Shown piece after piece: positions 1 through 59,245 of a stretch of 64,000 bases of DNA. The notes below the pieces were generated by a model, which saw only the letters and a program-made list of their open reading frames with translations, was not told the DNA's origin and searched no databases. Within the stretch, counting starts at the first letter, position 1. Each line of letters opens with the position of its first letter. The translations under genes and the position numbers were made by a program. This stretch comes from Gammaproteobacteria bacterium (lineage in GTDB: Bacteria; Pseudomonadota; Gammaproteobacteria; SZUA-152): the NCBI GenBank assembly GCA_011321815.1, contig DROS01000045.1, forward strand, positions 1-64,000. Reading direction: 5' to 3'.

Positions 1-141
1 GCCAACCCTTCGGGCGCTCCTGTGGTGTTCCGCTGCGGCGTTGCAGTGCTTGACAAGGGAACAACCATTGCCTGCGCACTGCGCCTTGCCGCGAAACACC
101 ACAGGAACGCTGAATCCCAATTTATCACCTTGAAAGAGTAC
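1..141. repeat. Right part of a MITE-like structured repeat, cut by the window edge
   Basis: Bases 1-40 and 91-141 closely match the right half of the complete element at 19743-20005, including its right terminal inverted repeat ending in AGAGTAC. Between them, 41-90 is an unrelated core with its own short inverted repeat (GCAGTGC against GCACTGC). The complete copy has a different 27-base core at this place. The element therefore belongs to a dispersed family with conserved outer parts and variable inner hairpins. The left half lies outside the window. No coding potential is evident. Confidence 0.8.
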
Positions 142-202
142 TAGCAGTGAGCACTTAAGGCGAGCAGCAGGGCATGAAACCCAAAGAGATTAAATCAGAT
201 AC

Positions 203-4413: not shown

Positions 4414-4546
4414 GCGCCCTGGTACAGAACCCATGTTATTTTGTCGGCTTCAGCGTTACAGTGGTGTTTCGTCATGAGTACTGACAGGCCAACTGAACCC
4501 GGCAAAATAACATGGGCAATGTACTGGCAAATCTGTCATAGGGCGC
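4414..4546. repeat. Second palindromic intergenic element
   Basis: Bases 4430-4447 (CCCATGTTATTTTGTCGG) recur inverted at 4499-4516 with one mismatch. The pairing extends outward through GTAC and inward to TTCAG, giving arms of about 36 bases (4418-4453 with 4493-4527). A short outer GCGCCCT/AGGGCGC pair lies at 4414-4420 and 4540-4546. The loop of about 40 bases has no open frame. Its sequence is unrelated to the palindrome at 4069-4178. The remaining intergenic bases up to 4734 hold a GGGCTGTC/GACAGCCC hairpin (4596-4634) and nothing else that I can support. Confidence 0.6.
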
Positions 4547-19742: not shown

Positions 19743-20005
19743 GTACTTTTTCAAGGTAATAAATTGGGATTCAGTTGGTCTGTCAGCGTTCAGGGCACCA
19801 ACAGTAGGCGCTTTAGGCGAGGCGCTCCTCGCAGCAAATGGCTGTCGTCCTTTGCAAGAGGAGCAACGCCGCCATGGACGCTGACAGGCCAACCCTTCGG
19901 GCGTTCCTGTGGTGTTCCGCTGCGGCGTCGCCTAAAGCGCCTACTGTTGGTGCCGCGAAACACCACAGGAACGCTGAATCACAATTTATTACCTTGAAAG
20001 AGTAC
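19743..20005. repeat. Complete MITE-like element with 32-bp terminal inverted repeats
   Basis: The left terminus 19743-19774 and right terminus 19974-20005 are inverted copies matching at 30 of 32 bases (both begin GTACT from the outside). Nested inside is a perfect 27-base inverted repeat (19794-19820 with 19928-19954). A further apical hairpin (GGCG-CTCCTC against GAGGAG-CAACGCC) and additional paired segments (TGTCAGCG/CGCTGACA; TTCCTGTGGTGTT against AACACCACAGGAA with few mismatches) make the 263-base element able to form a branched structure. No coding frame is evident. The right end lies 5 bases from the phosphoribulokinase stop codon. A related copy is at 1-141. Confidence 0.85.
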
Positions 20006-20010
20006 TAGGG

Positions 20011-23928: not shown

Positions 23929-24287
23929 TGCGTAGCTTATTGCGGGATAGTATTGATTCTCCGTCCATTTACCCCAGGCAGGAAGCCCGCGCCAAAGCGC
24001 GACGGGATGTGGCGCAGAACAGAATGATTTTCTTAACATCCGTGTCATGACGGGTGTGTTTACCAATATTTAGTGCGCTCCCATGTCCATCTTGTGTTCA
24101 TGACGAGCTGACCAATAGCAGCGAAACCAGACTCGCGACACTGGCCCCTGTTTTGTTTTTTTAACAATAAAACAGAAATGAAAATGGCCAGACCTGTCGG
24201 CGAGCGGTGAGACTGCCTATTGTTTGTGATGCCATTTGTGCCCGCAACCACAAGCGGACATCGGTTGAGCGCATGGACTGAAAAAAA

Positions 24288-27140
24288 ATGAAAAGAATGC
24301 TGTTTAACGCAACTCAACCAGAAGAGTTGCGCGTTGCCATGGTTGATGGTCAACGACTTTATGATCTGGATATCGAAACCGCTGGCCGCGAACAGAAAAA
24401 GGCCAATATCTACAAAGCCCGCATTACCCGCGTTGAGCCCAGCCTTGAAGCCGCATTTGTTGACTATGGCGCTGACCGCCACGGTTTCCTGCCCTTAAAA
24501 GAGATCTCCCGCGCCTACTTTGACCCCGATGCCGAAAAAACCGGTGGCCGTGTCAATATCAAACAGGTGCTGAAAGAAGGCCAGGAAATCATTGTTCAAG
24601 TAGAAAAAGAAGAACGTGGCAACAAGGGTGCGGCACTGACCACCTTCATCAGTCTTGCCGGACGCTACCTTGTTTTAATGCCGAATAACCCGCGTGCCGG
24701 TGGTGTATCACGCCGTATCGTCGGTGAAGAACGCAATGAAATCCGTGATGCCCTGGCCGCGCTGGATATTCCTGAAGATATGGGGTTGATTGTGCGCACC
24801 GCAGGTGTCGGTAAAAACCCCGAAGAATTGCAATGGGATCTCAATTACTTGTTGCAGTTATGGGAAGCCATCGACAAAGCCTCCAAAGAAGGCTCTGCGC
24901 CCTTTCTTGTTTACCAGGAAAGCGATGTCATTATCCGCGCAATACGTGACAACCTGCGCAAAGACATCAGCGAAATCCTCATTGATGACAAGGTGATCTT
25001 TGACAAGGCCACCGAATTCATGCAGATGGTGATGCCACACAACCTGAATAAACTCAAACATTACGATGACAGCGTACCACTGTTCACGCGCTACCAGATT
25101 GAATCACAAATCGAAACCGCCTTTAAACGCGAAGTACGCCTGCCTTCCGGTGGCGCCATTGTCATTGACCACACCGAAGCACTGATTTCCATCGACATCA
25201 ACTCCGCACGCGCCACCAAAGGCAGCGATATCGAAGAAACTGCGCTTAACACCAACCGGGAAGCTGCGGAAGAAGTGGCCCGTCAATTGCGCCTGCGTGA
25301 TCTCGGCGGACTGGTGGTCATCGACTTCATCGACATGTCCGCATCGCGCAACCAGCGCGAAGTGGAGAATACCTTGCGTGAAGCACTGAAGATGGACCGT
25401 GCCCGCGTGCAGATCGGCCGTATTTCGCGTTTCGGCCTGCTGGAAATGTCGCGGCAACGCCTGCGCCCGTCACTGGGCGAATCCGTACAAATCGTCTGTC
25501 CGCGCTGTGAAGGTCACGGCACCATTCGTGGCACCGAATCGCTGGCCCTGTCCATTCTGCGTATCATCGAAGAAGACGCCATGAAGGAACAGACTGCACG
25601 TATCGTCGTACAGGTACCCATCAACGTAGCCACCTTCCTGCTCAACGAAAAACGCCAGGCCATCACGGACATTGAGCAACGTCAGGGTATCAAAGTGGTG
25701 CTGATTCCCAACCCCACTTTTGACACACCGCATTATGAGGTTCAGCGTGAACGCGCCAGTGACCTCGCACACGACGCAGATTCACAAGCCAGTTACTCTC
25801 TGGCAGTGGAACGCGAAGAAGCTTCAGAATCGCTGGATGACAAACCCAAAATGGCATCCGAAACCCCTGCGGTAAGAGGTGTAGTACCTCCGTCCCCTCC
25901 AGCCCCTATGCCACAAGCCACGGCAGAAAACGGAGGCTCGCAACAAGGTGGTTTCATCAAACGCATTTGGAGCAGCCTGCTCGGCAGCAGTGAAAATTCT
26001 GAAGCCGTGCCCGCCAAACCGGCCGAAAAAACCGACAGCGCAAAACCAGCACAAAACCGGGGGCGTCACCGCAGCTCCTCAGGTAATCGCAGCAATGCAA
26101 ACCGCCGCCCTGCCCGACGCAATCAGAATCGTGACAGGCAGGATGGCGCACAGAGCCGGGACGAGCAGAAAAAAAATACCCAGAACCGTGGCGCGCATAC
26201 AAAAACATCCGCCGACAAAAACGAAAAACCAAAAACCGGCGACAAACAAACCGCACGTGCGCAAAACCGCAACCAAGCGCAAAACCGGGATACAAACACT
26301 GACGAGGCCAGCAACAACGAGCAGTCAAACACCGAACAAAATACACAAAATGATGGCCAGCAAAAAACAGGGGCGCGTCGTGGACGTCGCGGTGGACGGC
26401 GGCGGCGGCGCGATAGCGGTAATCGCAACCAAAATGCGGAAGCCACTGGTAATGAAAACAGTAGCACTGAAAGCAGCGCAACTGAACATAAAAGCAATGG
26501 CAATGCAGTCACGGCCAAACAACCAACGGAACCGGCAAAATCAGGTACCGCAACAGCGCCCGGTGAAACACCCGTCCAGCAGTCTGCCGAGCGTAAAAAT
26601 AAGCCGCCGAAACCTGTAGCCAGCAAGCCAACGGAAAAACCGGAAGCAAAGCAGGCTACAACGGCAACCCCGGAAACAAAACAAAAACCGCAGGAAAAAG
26701 CGGATATTCCTGTGAAAAACACGCCAAAGCCGGAAACAAAACAAGTTGCAACGGCAATACCGGCAGTAAAACAAAAACCGGTGGCAAAAGCGGATGCTTC
26801 TGTGGAAAAAACACCACCGGCTCTTGTGGCTCCAGCCGTTCCGGCAAAAACAGAAAAAAAACCGGCGGCACTGGTGCAGGTTGAAACAAAACCCACATTG
26901 GCAAAAACAGCAAACAGCGCGCATCCAACAAGCCCGGTGAAGCAACAACCCGCCTCCGCACCAAAACAGGCGGAACATAAAAAACCAGCCGGCAGCACAA
27001 TGCCGGCAAAGCCTGTGCTTGTTGAAACAAAACCGGCCAGCGCACCGCCACAGCCATCTGCTGTGGACACACAAGCTGCGCCGCGTGCCACAAAACCTGT
27101 GGAAAAGCCCACCACCAGCAAACCGGAACATAACGACTGA
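24288..27140 (+). CDS. rne: Ribonuclease E
   Basis: RNase E is the endoribonuclease that initiates mRNA decay and processes rRNA and tRNA, and scaffolds the degradosome at the inner membrane. Residues 1-500 form the catalytic half: [18 protein letters not shown]1 domain with [13 protein letters not shown], DNase-I-like motif INSARATKG with metal Asp, and the zinc-link CPRCEGHG near 404. From about residue 545 the protein is disordered: a possible membrane helix [13 protein letters not shown], Arg/Asn-rich RNA-binding stretches ([17 protein letters not shown]), then Lys/Pro/Thr/Ala repeats up to the end. Length (950) fits gammaproteobacterial RNase E. A terminator follows directly. Confidence 0.97.
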
Positions 27141-27160
27141 CACGCCGTAGTGCTGATGCA

Positions 27161-27197
27161 AAAAGCCCTGACCATATTGCATGGTCAGGGCTTTTTT
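27161..27197 (+). terminator. Strong bidirectional intrinsic terminator after rne
   Basis: A perfect 12-bp stem AGCCCTGACCAT/ATGGTCAGGGCT (27164-27175 and 27181-27192) with a five-base loop is followed by six T on the plus strand and preceded by five A, giving a T-run on the minus strand. It probably serves both rne and the convergent phosphatase gene. Confidence 0.92.
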
Positions 27198-27258
27198 GTA
27201 CTTGCCACATCAGGTGCATTCAGGAACGTGCGCGTTCCTTACATCACATCGTCCATCG

Positions 27259-27744
27259 TCAATTCTGCAAATAACGTAATTGTATATCCTGGAGCAACCC
27301 TGCCGAAGCCTCTTCAATCATATCCAATACCCGCTCAAACCCCAGCGGGCCACCGTAATACGGGTCTGGTACTTCATCATGCTCAAGATTGGGCGCATAA
27401 CTTAGAAATAAATTTAATTTATATTCCGCGCCCACCGGACAAATGGCCTGCAAACTCCGCTGGTTGTCTCTGTCCATGGCCAAAATATAATCAAAAATAT
27501 CAAAATCCCCGGCCACTGCCCGCCGCGCCCGCTGCGACGATAAATCAAAACCGCGTTTCAACGCCGTCTTCTGCGAGCGGGGATCAGGCGCTTCGCCCAC
27601 ATGATAGGCATGAGTGCCCGCTGAATCGACATGAATAACATCCGCAAGATTTGCATCCTGCACGTGCCGGGTAAAAACACCCTCAGCAGTTGGCGAGCGA
27701 CATATGTTGCCCATACAAACAAATAGAACCTTGATTTTTTCCAT
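27259..27744 (-). CDS. Low-molecular-weight protein-tyrosine phosphatase
   Basis: This 161-residue enzyme dephosphorylates phosphotyrosine proteins. The P-loop CMGNICRSP begins with the nucleophile Cys10 and ends with the substrate-binding Arg and Ser. The general-acid Asp is in VPDPYYGG near residue 125, as in the family. This stand-alone copy is not next to a tyrosine kinase or exopolysaccharide operon, so it is more like the housekeeping YfkJ/LMWP type. It is convergent with rne. The 362 bases between its start and pycA hold no supported gene. A 12-base match to the MITE terminus (GGTAATAAATTG) at 27772-27783 may be coincidence. Confidence 0.93.
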   Translation of the reverse strand: MEKIKVLFVCMGNICRSPTAEGVFTRHVQDANLADVIHVDSAGTHAYHVGEAPDPRSQKTALKRGFDLSSQRARRAVAGDFDIFDYILAMDRDNQRSLQAICPVGAEYKLNLFLSYAPNLEHDEVPDPYYGGPLGFERVLDMIEEASAGLLQDIQLRYLQN

Positions 27745-28106
27745 AAATAGCAGCCAGCCAGTGTTTATTCAGGTAATAAATTGTACCATCAAAAAAACCA
27801 AGTATCAGAGCTTTGGGACCCCAGAAAAAACTGACTGCGGGATAACTGTCAGTTCCTCCGGTTACCACTTTGTTTACTAATAAAGTCAGACAGTTGAACG
27901 CCATTATCGCAGAGCAGAATAGCGGCCATTGGGCAGTTACACCACGAAACAGCGTTAAAATCCGCGCCACGCTTGACAGCGTTGCCGGTGATGCGCATAT
28001 TCCGGTGAGTGGTTGCCCGTCAGGTTTTTATCGCCGCTGCCACTATCATAAAAACAAGTAACAGAATAAGCGGTTCGTAAAAACATATTCATCGAACAGG
28101 TTTGCC

Positions 28107-42746: not shown

Positions 42747-43509
42747 CGTCACCACCCTGCCCGGGTTGGATGAAACACATCTCGTATCGCCAGAGCACGA
42801 GCAACTGACACAAACGCCCTCTGCCGGTATTGTCGAGTCGGAGCGCAAGCTGGTTCTCACCCTGAAAGGTAAAATCCTTCGTGAATTTTCCATTAATGAT
42901 CAGGACCTGAGCATCGGTCGCCAACACAGCAACGACATCCAGTTAAACGACCTGACCCTGAGCGGACGCCACGCACTGATTTCCAGCATCCCCGATTATG
43001 TCTTTATCGAAGACCTGGGCAGCACCAATGGCACCATGGTCAATGGCAATCACGTGAAAAAAACGGCACTTGAGCATGGCGATGTTATCCAGATCGGCCA
43101 TCATCAACTTACCTACGTATGCGCACCGGAACCCCGCCACGAACCCACCATGTTCATCAAAGCAGAACAGGATGAAACACAATTCATTTACAGCGATGAA
43201 ATCGATCAGGAACTGATCACGGGTCTCGCTCTGGGCGGCCTGCGCACCGTGGCAAAACTGACTTCAAAAGAGGTCATGGAACTGCGAAAAACCTACAACA
43301 CCATCGGTTTTCAGGGCAAACGCATGGCGTTGATCACACGTGGCTCTGAGGGTTACAGCATCACTTCAGTGACTGGCAGCCGCAGCCGCCGGGCCAATGA
43401 CGTCCCCTACATCAACGGAAAAGAGCTGGGCACCGAACAGCTTTTATTGAATGAAGGGGACGTTATTAACATCGCCGGATTTAAAGTACAATTTTATTAT
43501 CTTAGTTAA
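42706..43509 (+). CDS. FHA-domain protein with degenerate second FHA-like module (paralogue 1)
   Basis: This 267-residue protein has a low-complexity N-terminus, then a canonical FHA domain (about residues 48-138) with Gly71/Arg72, Ser87-Gly-Arg-His89 and TNGT, the set that binds phosphothreonine. After a linker containing EPTMFIKAE comes a second module (about 195-266: TIGFQGKRMALITR, YINGKELG, GDVINIAGFKVQFY) with FHA-like strand order but lacking the Arg and Ser-x-x-His residues. It overlaps the second PilT gene and probably reads out phosphorylation by the HEAT kinase. Confidence 0.85.
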   Translation: MSQPTQHQAANSNNVTTLPGLDETHLVSPEHEQLTQTPSAGIVESERKLVLTLKGKILREFSINDQDLSIGRQHSNDIQLNDLTLSGRHALISSIPDYVFIEDLGSTNGTMVNGNHVKKTALEHGDVIQIGHHQLTYVCAPEPRHEPTMFIKAEQDETQFIYSDEIDQELITGLALGGLRTVAKLTSKEVMELRKTYNTIGFQGKRMALITRGSEGYSITSVTGSRSRRANDVPYINGKELGTEQLLLNEGDVINIAGFKVQFYYLS

Positions 43510-43654: not shown

Positions 43655-44335
43655 ATGAACAGTAAACTCATCCTCACACTTGACGGTGAAATCATCAACG
43701 AACATCTGTTGAAAACTGAAACACTCAGCATTGGTCGTAAATACGTCAACGACGTCCAGCTAAATGACCTGACAGTGAGCGGCCGCCACGCCATGTTCTG
43801 CCGGGTACAACCAGACCAAGTCTTTGTTGAAGATCTTGGCAGTACCAACGGTACCCTGGTTAACGGTAACCACATTAAAAAAACAGCATTGAGACACGGT
43901 GACATTATCCAGATAGGCCACCATCAATTCACTTTCCTCAACGAAGGCAGTGAAGCCCAATATGAACCGACCATGTTCATCAAAGCAGAACTGGATGAAA
44001 CCCAAATGGTACTGCCCGACTGGGAGTCACGCGAAGAAAGTATCAAAGGACAACCACTGGCCGGCCTGCGAACACTCAATGGCCCACTGGCACGCACCGT
44101 AATGGAACTGCGCAAACCATTCAGCACCATTGGTTTTCAGGGCCACAAAATGGCGCTGATCAGCCGCGGGCTGGATAGCTACACCATCAGCCCCGTAGCC
44201 ACCACAAAAAACCGTCGTTCATCAGATCACGTTCTGCTCAATGGCGAAGAACTCGGCCCGGCAGCCGTTGCCCTCAAACCGGAAGACGTCATCAGCATTT
44301 CCGGTTTTGAAGTTGAGTTTTATTTTATCCATTAG
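43655..44335 (+). CDS. FHA-domain protein with degenerate second FHA-like module (paralogue 2)
   Basis: This 226-residue paralogue of the preceding protein lacks its N-terminal extension. A canonical FHA domain occupies about residues 5-95 (SIGRKYVNDVQLNDLTVSG, RHAMF, STNGTLVNGNH), followed by the same EPTMFIKAE linker and the FHA-like second module (about 157-224: STIGFQGHKMALISR, DVISISGFEVEFYF). AGGAA precedes the ATG. A 145-base spacer separates the paralogues. The gene is convergent with fliI, with only 27 bases between the stops, and closes the signalling cluster. Confidence 0.85.
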   Translation: MNSKLILTLDGEIINEHLLKTETLSIGRKYVNDVQLNDLTVSGRHAMFCRVQPDQVFVEDLGSTNGTLVNGNHIKKTALRHGDIIQIGHHQFTFLNEGSEAQYEPTMFIKAELDETQMVLPDWESREESIKGQPLAGLRTLNGPLARTVMELRKPFSTIGFQGHKMALISRGLDSYTISPVATTKNRRSSDHVLLNGEELGPAAVALKPEDVISISGFEVEFYFIH

Positions 44336-57378: not shown

Positions 57379-58062
57379 CTACCTCAAAAGAGAAAGTACG
57401 TTATTGGGTATCTGATTGGCCTGAGCCACCATCGCCGTACCCGCTTGCACCAAAATCTGACCACGCGTCAGATTTGCGGTTTCCATTGCAAAATCAGCAT
57501 CCATGATCCGGCTGAGTGCAGCCGATTGATTCACGCGCTCTGTTTCAAACCGCTGAACCTGAAATTCAGCCGCAGCAATAGTGGAACCAAAACCCGCTCG
57601 CAGAGTAGCGACACTACCCAGCTCAAGAGCAACAGCCGATATGGCTGAAGCTTCCGATACGCTGGCAGCAACAGAAGCTGCTCCAAGCGAGGCAAGCTGT
57701 GCATTTAGTGCAGAAAATTCCACCTGAATCTTTGAGGACTCAGCAGTACCGTTTGTGCCGGTTGCCTGCACCGCCAACTCGTTCATGCGTTGCAAAATAT
57801 CCGTCGCCACGGCCAAATTGCCGTCACTGATTTGTGCAGCAGAAATATCATCTGCGGCATTACGGATCTGCACGCCGAGAGAACGCACTGTTGATTGCAG
57901 GCTCATCGCCACGGCCAGACCAGCGGCATCGTCACGTGCGCTATTGACACGTAAACCGGAAGATAAACGTTCGACTGAAGTTGCCAGACTCAAAGAGTTT
58001 TTATTCAAATTCTTTTGAGCATTCAACGACATTACATTGGTATTAATAATACTGGCAGCCAT
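57379..58062 (-). CDS. fliC: Flagellin, short form (distal tandem copy)
   Basis: This 227-residue flagellin has the full conserved N-terminal D0/D1 helix (ASIINTNVMSLNAQKNLNKN, RLSSGLRVNSARDDAAGLAV) and C-terminal helix (ADFAMETANLTRGQILVQAG, AQANQIPNNVLSLLR). The centre is reduced to about 40 residues, with no D2/D3 and without the usual FNG-containing D1 hairpin. The ATG at 58062 was chosen because AGGAG lies 8 bases upstream. It is almost identical to the upstream copy except for the central segment. A sigma-28-like promoter is conserved upstream. Confidence 0.93.
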   Translation of the reverse strand: MAASIINTNVMSLNAQKNLNKNSLSLATSVERLSSGLRVNSARDDAAGLAVAMSLQSTVRSLGVQIRNAADDISAAQISDGNLAVATDILQRMNELAVQATGTNGTAESSKIQVEFSALNAQLASLGAASVAASVSEASAISAVALELGSVATLRAGFGSTIAAAEFQVQRFETERVNQSAALSRIMDADFAMETANLTRGQILVQAGTAMVAQANQIPNNVLSLLR

Positions 58063-58147
58063 TACCATAACTCCTGTTCATACCCCTGCTGACACAACTC
58101 ATGGGGTTAATACGGGTCAGCTTTTGGGGTAGATTGTATCCAGCGGA

Positions 58148-58174
58148 TATATCACCTGTAGTTGGAAATATTTA
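58148..58174 (-). promoter_or_regulatory. Sigma-28-like promoter of the distal flagellin gene
   Basis: On the minus strand TAAA (58171-58174) is followed after 15 bases by GTGATATA (58148-58155), close to the FliA consensus TAAA-N15-GCCGATAA. The identical arrangement precedes the other flagellin gene, so the promoter was duplicated with the gene. Confidence 0.7.
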
Positions 58175-58204
58175 CCGCTCCATTTGCCACTTGTTTCTCA
58201 AGGA

Positions 58205-58891
58205 TTATCTCAAGAGGGACAACACGTTATTAGGAATCTGGTTGGCCTGGGCCACCATCGCCGTACCCGCCTGCACCAGAATCTGACCACGAGTCAGATT
58301 TGCAGTTTCCATTGCAAAATCAGCATCCATGATCCGGCTAAGTGCAGCCGATTGATTCACACGTTCTGTTTCAAACCGCTGAACCTGGAATTCAGCCGCA
58401 GCAATAGTGGAACCAAAGCCCGCCCGCAAGGTAGCAACAGAACCCAAAACACCTGCAACACTCGCAATAGCAGCAGCATCAGCCACACTTACAGTGACAG
58501 AAGCGGCGACTCCAAGACTTACAAGCTGAGTGTTCAAAGCATCAAATTCGACACCGATTTTGGATGATTCGGCCGCACCATTTGTACCGGTTGCCTGCAC
58601 TGCCAACTCATTCATACGTTGCAAAATATCTGTCGCCACGGCCAAATTGCCGTCACTGATTTGTGCAGCAGAAATATCATCTGCGGCATTACGGATCTGC
58701 ACACCGAGAGAACGTACCGTAGATTGCAAGCTCATTGCCACAGCCAGACCAGCGGCATCGTCACGTGCACTATTGACACGCAAACCGGAAGATAAACGTT
58801 CGACTGAAGTTGCCAGGCTCAAAGAGTTTTTATTCAAATTCTTTTGAGCATTCAACGACATTACATTGGTATTGATAATACTAGCAGCCAT
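58205..58891 (-). CDS. fliC: Flagellin, short form (proximal tandem copy)
   Basis: This 228-residue paralogue of the neighbouring flagellin has matching N-terminal (about residues 1-105) and C-terminal (about 155-228) regions. The central stretch differs (VEFDALNTQLVSLGVAAS with VSVADAAAIASVAGVLG against ASVAASVSEASAISAVALELG). The deduced protein lacks the outer domains. AGGAG precedes the ATG at a good distance. The tandem pair shares promoter and leader sequences and likely arose by duplication followed by gene conversion of the conserved ends. Both are probably exported with FliS and glycosylated by the adjacent genes. Confidence 0.93.
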   Translation of the reverse strand: MAASIINTNVMSLNAQKNLNKNSLSLATSVERLSSGLRVNSARDDAAGLAVAMSLQSTVRSLGVQIRNAADDISAAQISDGNLAVATDILQRMNELAVQATGTNGAAESSKIGVEFDALNTQLVSLGVAASVTVSVADAAAIASVAGVLGSVATLRAGFGSTIAAAEFQVQRFETERVNQSAALSRIMDADFAMETANLTRGQILVQAGTAMVAQANQIPNNVLSLLR

Positions 58892-58973
58892 TGCAAAACT
58901 CCTATTTCACACCCCTGCTGGCACAACTACTGAATAGTGTGGCCAACTTTTGAGGCAGATTGTATTTAGCGGA

Positions 58974-59000
58974 TATATCACCTGTGTTCGGAAATATTTA
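58974..59000 (-). promoter_or_regulatory. Sigma-28-like promoter of the proximal flagellin gene
   Basis: TAAA (58997-59000), 15 bases, then GTGATATA (58974-58981) on the minus strand fit the FliA consensus and lie about 85 bases before the start. The remaining 59001-59245 region is AT-rich and holds the divergent start of the motility-associated factor gene, with no further gene. Confidence 0.7.
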
Positions 59001-59245
59001 CCGCTCCCACGCATTATGTCGGCCCGACTAAAGAGAAGCTTTAATAATATTCGCACACCACTCTTACCACATATTGCTTGTTTTTATAAGAACATTGACT
59101 GCAAGAATTAATATAAATAAAACAACGTATTGCATAAGCTTTCGCACATTCCGGCCGACAATCACGACCATTAAGTGGCGTACAATTTGCATATGTTACA
59201 AACAACAACTGCTATACGTCATGATATCGACATGGAGACCGGCTT

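Follow-up and report, generated by a model that had tools for sequence, protein, structure and literature searches.

A two-armed hairpin element of MITE type in a gammaproteobacterial genome with a conserved hairpin core and apparently exchanged ends

The gammaproteobacterial genome analysed here carries a repeat family which is probably best explained as a MITE with two hairpin arms, whose outer shells have been exchanged, whose hairpin core has been swapped in some copies through a short module named X, and whose arms would have a role at the RNA level. The window is a stretch of 64,000 nucleotides which comprises bases 1-64000 of contig C45, in a draft genome of 3.58 Mb and 109 contigs. As judged by sequence comparison, the hairpin core is the conserved part of the element and the outer shell is the exchanged part, which is the opposite of the picture given in an earlier note on this DNA.

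At the left edge of the window (1-144) an element copy is truncated by the contig start, so that its right half alone is present. Since the window begins at base 1 of C45, the left neighbour of this copy is absent from the assembled contig. The linker mini-hairpin CCCTTCGGG (6-14), found also in relatives, forms the boundary between the two arms, named arm L and arm R. It is followed by arm R (17-107, minus strand), a bulged hairpin with core B, and by the right terminal inverted repeat (TIR) CTGAATCCCAATTTATCACCTTGAAAGAGTAC (110-141), which is 94% complementary to 19743-19774. The window TIR begins GTACTCTTTCAAGG; its last base is 141 and CTAG occupies 141-144. Arm R was matched by the structural model R1 with 98 bits (E 5e-22), this arm being one of the 59 sequences used to build the model. 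In the genome search, sequences with 100% identity to 1-144 were found at the starts of C74 and C43 and at C18:14796-14939. Positions 145-197 (plus strand) hold the remnant of a family-2 repeat split by the element, as the flanks, once joined, can be aligned through the junction with family-2 copies; the other side of this remnant would be the end of contig C106.

A complete X-type copy lies at 19743-20005 between a maf-like and a phosphoribulokinase-like gene (names read from sequence). Its left TIR (19743-19774) is flanked by TCCG, not CTAG, and its right TIR (19974-20005), located from sequence and inverted-repeat comparison, is followed by CTAG at 20005-20008. Arm L (19799-19890, plus strand; R1, 63 bits) has a TCCTC/GAGGA core and an exact match to X at GCA^A (19798-19819, plus strand), and the register of the outer stem in the R1 match is disturbed by X. 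After the linker CCCTTCGGG (19893-19901), arm R (19904-19971, minus strand; R1, 29 bits with an internal deletion) carries X in place of core B, again as an exact match (19929-19950, minus strand). The earlier note had described two copies with common outer parts and different middles, and alignment agrees with it: 1-44 matches 19888-19931 at 95% and 87-144 matches 19951-20008 at 97%, around about 42 unrelated bases in the left-edge copy and 19 in the copy at 19743-20005. It had also rightly seen that the right-half core of the complete copy (19929-19950) pairs with its left half, being the exact reverse complement of 19798-19819. With X in both arms and one core replaced, it is the copy at 19743-20005 which comparison of the sequences marks as the odd one of the two.

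Complete copies show the order TIR, arm L, CCCTTCGGG, arm R and TIR. Towards the linker, each arm runs through an outer stem, GGCAAGGCGC, a 5-bp stem, GCAG, a short stem and a TGG...CC loop; on the return side the stems run back, followed by GCAACGCC and the outer stem, and the layout is the same in both arms. The stem bases are TCCTC/GAGGA in arm L and AGTGC/GCACT in arm R. The arm can be modelled as outer stem, GCAAGGCGC, variable stem, GCAG..AATGG loop, variable stem, GCAACGCC and outer stem. A complete copy which has the window's core is predicted to fold (-152.9 kcal/mol, RNA parameters) into two separate arms on a TIR stem, so the core at 41-90 singled out in the earlier note, which is the upper part of the window's arm R, is predicted to pair within itself. 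Two complete copies possess this same core, at C69:127506-127769 (L017) and C65:4543-4806 (L009). In both, the core self-pairs by GCAGTGC/GCACTGC plus an inner stem, and the left half is an inverted paralogous arm with TCCTC/GAGGA which is also self-pairing. Between the two halves of a copy, reverse complementarity is about 73%; this reflects the inverted paralogy of the arms and not a pairing of one core with the other.

These copies bear directly on the expectation that the missing left half would hold the reverse complement of its own core. Contig C106 terminates in an element preceded by ...ACTACCCCGCAGCACTAG, and the window resumes after its element with CTAGCAGTGAGCACTTAAGGCGAGC...; when the C106 and C45 flanks are joined at one CTAG, they align to family 2 across the junction (81% over 52 nt, E 6e-9). 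C106 likely holds the left half of the window copy, the join between the two contigs being inferred, and its end carries the usual arm L with TCCTC/GAGGA. A conserved shell with compensating cores, in which the right-half core pairs with the left half as copy-specific matched pairs, does describe the pairing in the copy at 19743-20005, where X is present in both arms. As a general account it is very improbable, since complete copies with the window's core pair within their arms and C106 agrees with them in having a standard arm L; the expected complement was therefore not borne out. Still less credible is that the differing cores arose through misassembly of the draft genome at repeat ends. 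Many contigs do begin or terminate within these elements, but complete copies of both core types are situated inside contigs with unique flanks (L001, L002, L009, L013, L017), and the same core types are found in other species.

Two whole-genome searches, the first with the complete copy as query, returned 107 and 64 aligned pieces with best E values of 6e-139 and 3e-70, numbers and values which place the repeat relationship far beyond chance. The element-end pattern matched 65 times in the genome and once for the reversed control. After removal of duplicates 63 distinct ends remained, 58 of them with a CTAG flank, and 60 ran on into an element (32 into arm L and 28 into arm R), which gives about 30 copies in the genome. 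The eight complete copies are non-coding, 239-306 bp long and bounded by 32-nt TIRs, with CTAG on both sides in six. By these sequence features the element is classed as a short non-coding MITE with transposon-type ends. Genes beside the elements showed a mild 3'-end bias (30 vs 21).

Insertion at TA within CTAG is the habit of IS630 elements. The target here may likewise be TA within CTAG rather than a 4-bp CTAG duplication, the flanks alone fitting both. An IS630-family IS of the same genome, in C40, has TIRs flanked by CTAG, and these match the TIRs of sister subfamilies of the MITE at 22-27 of 32 positions, the shuffle maximum being 21. The match of the main-subfamily TIR to the local IS630-family IS is weak (17/32, P about 0.03). 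An IS630-family transposase is a candidate for mobilisation in trans. A degenerate short relative with arm remnants and 32-nt TIRs beginning GTACAGAACCCATG was recognised at 4422-4525 from sequence and as inverted repeat I3; with 21/32 identical positions, its TIRs are nearer to the IS630-family IS of the genome than those of the main family. Solitary 22-nt TIR pieces (TACTCTTTCAAGGTAATAAATT) with no element behind them were also seen at C17:21045 (L118), C75:6101 (L114) and C24:13868 (L119). All three end at the same base, preceded by CTAG in two cases and CTAAG in one, and one of them is positioned directly before an ATG, with AAGG as possible ribosome-binding site.

Module X (CCAACAGTAGGCGCTTTAGGCG) is 22 nt long and occurs 43 times in the genome at up to 3 mismatches. 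Among 42 sites with both flanks readable in this and related genomes, 35 sit precisely at GCA^A and 7 deviate from it by one base. X adjoins the core of arm L or of arm R, either 5' or 3' of it; one further site is a third GCAA close to the apex (L204), and another falls within the unrelated family-2 repeat (L106). Copies in C58, C56, C2, C107, C25 and C35 carry X on both sides of core B, and a single X stands in place of the core in the window copy at 19743-20005 and in copies of C21, C42 and C69. In the proposed course of events X would enter at the GCA^A on each flank of the arm R core, and deletion between the two direct copies would then produce the core difference between the window copies. 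Core swap through flanking X copies with loss of the segment between them is the most likely route on the present sequences. Chimeric elements were noticed at the ends of contigs C54 (L015) and C55 (L036), where the 5' half of one arm and the 3' half of its counterpart meet at X and the outer stem is broken; they could result from X-mediated recombination between the X of arm L and that of arm R, or from an assembly join. Family 2 (L106-L110, L229) carries X-like sequence, arranged in L229 as tandem units of about 19 nt (AAGTAGGCGCYYTGAGGCGA), and X may come from a short tandem-repeat family.

Other repeats and composition of the window were also noted. A direct repeat of about 800 bp occupies 57380-59007 with a spacing of 826-829 and 84-87% identity, and a 54-nt direct repeat with 85% identity is present at 43129-43182 and 43952-44005, 823 bp apart. 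Strong local AT skew (+0.249) was observed in 24001-28000, compared to about 0 in most of the window.

Conservation of the fold was analysed with an exact pattern scan in which the stems were left free and the other letters fixed. At least 110 stretches matched, in Stutzerimonas, Pseudomonas, Marinobacter, Wenzhouxiangella, Thioalkalivibrio, Microbulbifer, Azoarcus, Nitrosomonadales, a zetaproteobacterium and others. Among 73 distinct arms, most stem positions outside the pattern were paired in 77-99% and the two pairs next to the core in 59-67%, each above the shuffled maximum. For 59 arms and 33 pairs, 93.5% of the cells were paired, compared to 65.4% in shuffled and 33-43% in slid alignments, and the covariation score was 0.715, shuffled alignments giving 0.179 and slid ones no more than 0.117. 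As the pattern had itself supplied the fixed letters, the conservation of the bulges was rechecked in covariance-model matches from other genera, found without the pattern. There the mean identity was 67% at unpaired and 52% at paired positions, and CAAGGCG and CAACG were mostly conserved at 80-90% or above; this check is softer than the pairing test, the matches having been chosen by a model which favours those letters. Constant bulges along with drifting but matched helices argue for selection on the fold, and preservation of structure rather than sequence is strongly supported by the alignments. The suggestion of the earlier note that structure is kept and not sequence thus stands in the helices, which vary across genera yet stay paired around unchanged bulges and loop, while its pairing of a conserved shell with a swapped core has to be reversed. 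In Rfam 15 no element passed any gathering threshold, and a permissive search gave only below-threshold microRNA matches in the arms. The group II intron family of Rfam gave a weak match (30.1 bits, against a gathering value of 40) at L017 2395-2464 (minus strand), about 630 bp from an element copy.

The element is distributed far beyond this genome. Matches to the sequence of the complete element were found in 21 of 57 genomes, this one included, and in these relatives the TIRs and stems are altered and the stems are still complementary. With model R1 an arm was detected in 68 of 399 Pseudomonadota genomes, from 46 of the 213 genera sampled, usually as one of an opposed pair. The related elements are mostly 240-290 bp long and the single-arm forms about 157-170 bp. 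The ends are unrelated between types in elements which mostly measure 266-290 bp. Besides GTACTC and TATACCC types, ends of the types GGGTCTGTTGACG, GAGCGTGTTATG, GAACGTGTTTACG and GAGCCTGTC were found, and two of these latter four are IS5-family ends. One IS5-family transposase gene (DDE_Tnp_1/DUF4096) of Burkholderia glumae and another of Aeromonas lie between matching TIRs. With IS630-like ends here and IS5-family ends elsewhere, the hairpin resides in MITEs which belong to two or more transposon families, and the shells would have been exchanged around a conserved hairpin core. IS630-type (DDE_3) genes were not commoner in hairpin-positive genomes (9/68 vs 90/331), so the current mover is uncertain in most hosts. 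Plasmids are almost without the element, with one partial match of the window type and four of the Stutzerimonas type, the one copy inspected being unannotated; the TIR query GAGCCTGTCTCATAAAATCC matched nothing on plasmids, viral contigs gave no exact match, and phages gave no match to the only query used there, the Correia one.

Two other accounts of the hairpin have to be weighed against selection on a folded RNA. REP/REPIN sequences are thought to be nicked as single-stranded DNA hairpins during replication, and here a HUH/Y1 (RAYT-like) or other enzyme may similarly nick the GCA^A bulge, with X marking the cleavage. The position of X at GCA^A or one base off and the two opposed hairpins, as in REPINs, fit this account, and Y1_Tnp genes are commoner in hairpin-positive genomes (42/68 vs 114/331, P 4e-5). 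That association is confounded by phylogeny, however, and 26 of the 68 positive genomes are without Y1_Tnp at the cut-off. RAYT genes are usually located among their REPs, yet no R1 arm was found in 12 loci around Y1_Tnp genes, two of them in this genome, and the element ends and CTAG flanks fit DDE transposition; we therefore regard single-strand processing as unlikely. Absence of any function is rated lower still. The repair of imperfect palindromes by template switching is a known process which would keep drifting helices matched in plain selfish DNA. Such repair should erase the bulges, but in other genera CAAGGCG and CAACG remain near 90% and unpaired positions exceed paired ones in identity.

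The nearest known elements are the Correia elements (CREE/NEMIS) of Neisseria. Model R1 was built without Neisseria sequence, and in one N. gonorrhoeae chromosome (catalogued as plasmid) it gave 26 matches with a best E of 3.3e-6. All ten matches inspected were bounded by Correia repeats at 104-106 or 154 bp. CREE/NEMIS resemble the window arms in a hairpin core which aligns over CAAGGCG, CCGCAG, CAAGG and GCAACGCC, and resemble the element in being mobile and non-coding with TA-type ends. They differ in having one arm and 104-156 bp, compared to two opposed arms, about 262 bp and a CTAG target in the window elements, and in their TIRs, which are 26-bp Correia repeats beginning TATAGTGGATTAA and not GTACTCTTTCAAGG. 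With the core shared and the Correia repeats absent, the window element has a related core and is no Correia element as defined. Common descent of the two cores is the simplest reading of the alignment, the alternative being convergence. Within the literature searched, CREE are reported from Neisseria only. RNase III binding or cleavage in mRNA, IHF binding of longer forms, promoters and mobility are described for Correia elements, and publications on the RNase III and IHF effects concern CREE alone and not the window elements (PMC2649163).

Among other systems, compared by description, RUP of Streptococcus pneumoniae is an IS630-Spn1 MITE with TIRs matching an IS630-family IS and TA insertion, but it is 107 bp long, belongs to Firmicutes and has no such core described (PMC2229807). 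R0 and R2 of P. fluorescens are also MITE-like, with inverted repeats identical to a resident IS and hairpin folds, and differ in their length of 89-110 bp (PMC2718517). REP/REPIN sequences (BIME) share opposed hairpins, intergenic location and high copy number, whereas REPs, besides being short, have no DDE-type TIRs and are linked to RAYT genes. The ends of enterobacterial ERIC resemble the TATACCC-type shells of some relatives, and the interior of an E. coli ERIC (L395 101-260) contains AAGGCGGC...GCGAACGC. ERIC is possibly distant kin of the hairpin elements by sequence, while the model score on one E. coli copy (5.7 bits, E 0.4 on 442 bases) is not supportive. From their descriptions, betaproteobacterial BRE (PMC3110155) and R200/R26 of P. 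fluorescens (PMC2718517) may be relatives. MITEs and Correia elements are already known; new would be the superfamily joining them, which had been unconnected, and the open-access literature gave no account of it or of the Correia link, most subscription journals lying outside the search.

For the arms we infer a role at the RNA level. In read-through transcripts an arm would fold as RNA and RNase III would process or protect it, as reported for Correia elements, and the opposed arms would provide one functional arm whichever strand is transcribed. One arm in the same sense would be present in any transcript or single strand, and the effect would therefore be independent of the orientation of insertion. 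We further propose tentatively, as a possibility short of an even chance, that one hairpin module has been passed between MITEs of two or more DDE families, IS630 and IS5, in Gamma-, Beta- and Zetaproteobacteria, with Correia as one branch and X at GCA^A reflecting strand cleavage at the bulge. If true, the module itself would be what is selfish or useful to the host, and the transposon ends would serve it as interchangeable vehicles. The usual definition of a MITE rests on its ends, the interior being regarded as dispensable and the element as a transposon remnant; here the interior is conserved via compensatory changes while the ends switch transposon families. Research on how Correia elements act through RNase III, promoters and IHF spans decades. 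The Correia link would make this Neisseria curiosity one branch of a widespread class, and would allow its function to be tested in tractable strains, for instance of Stutzerimonas stutzeri.
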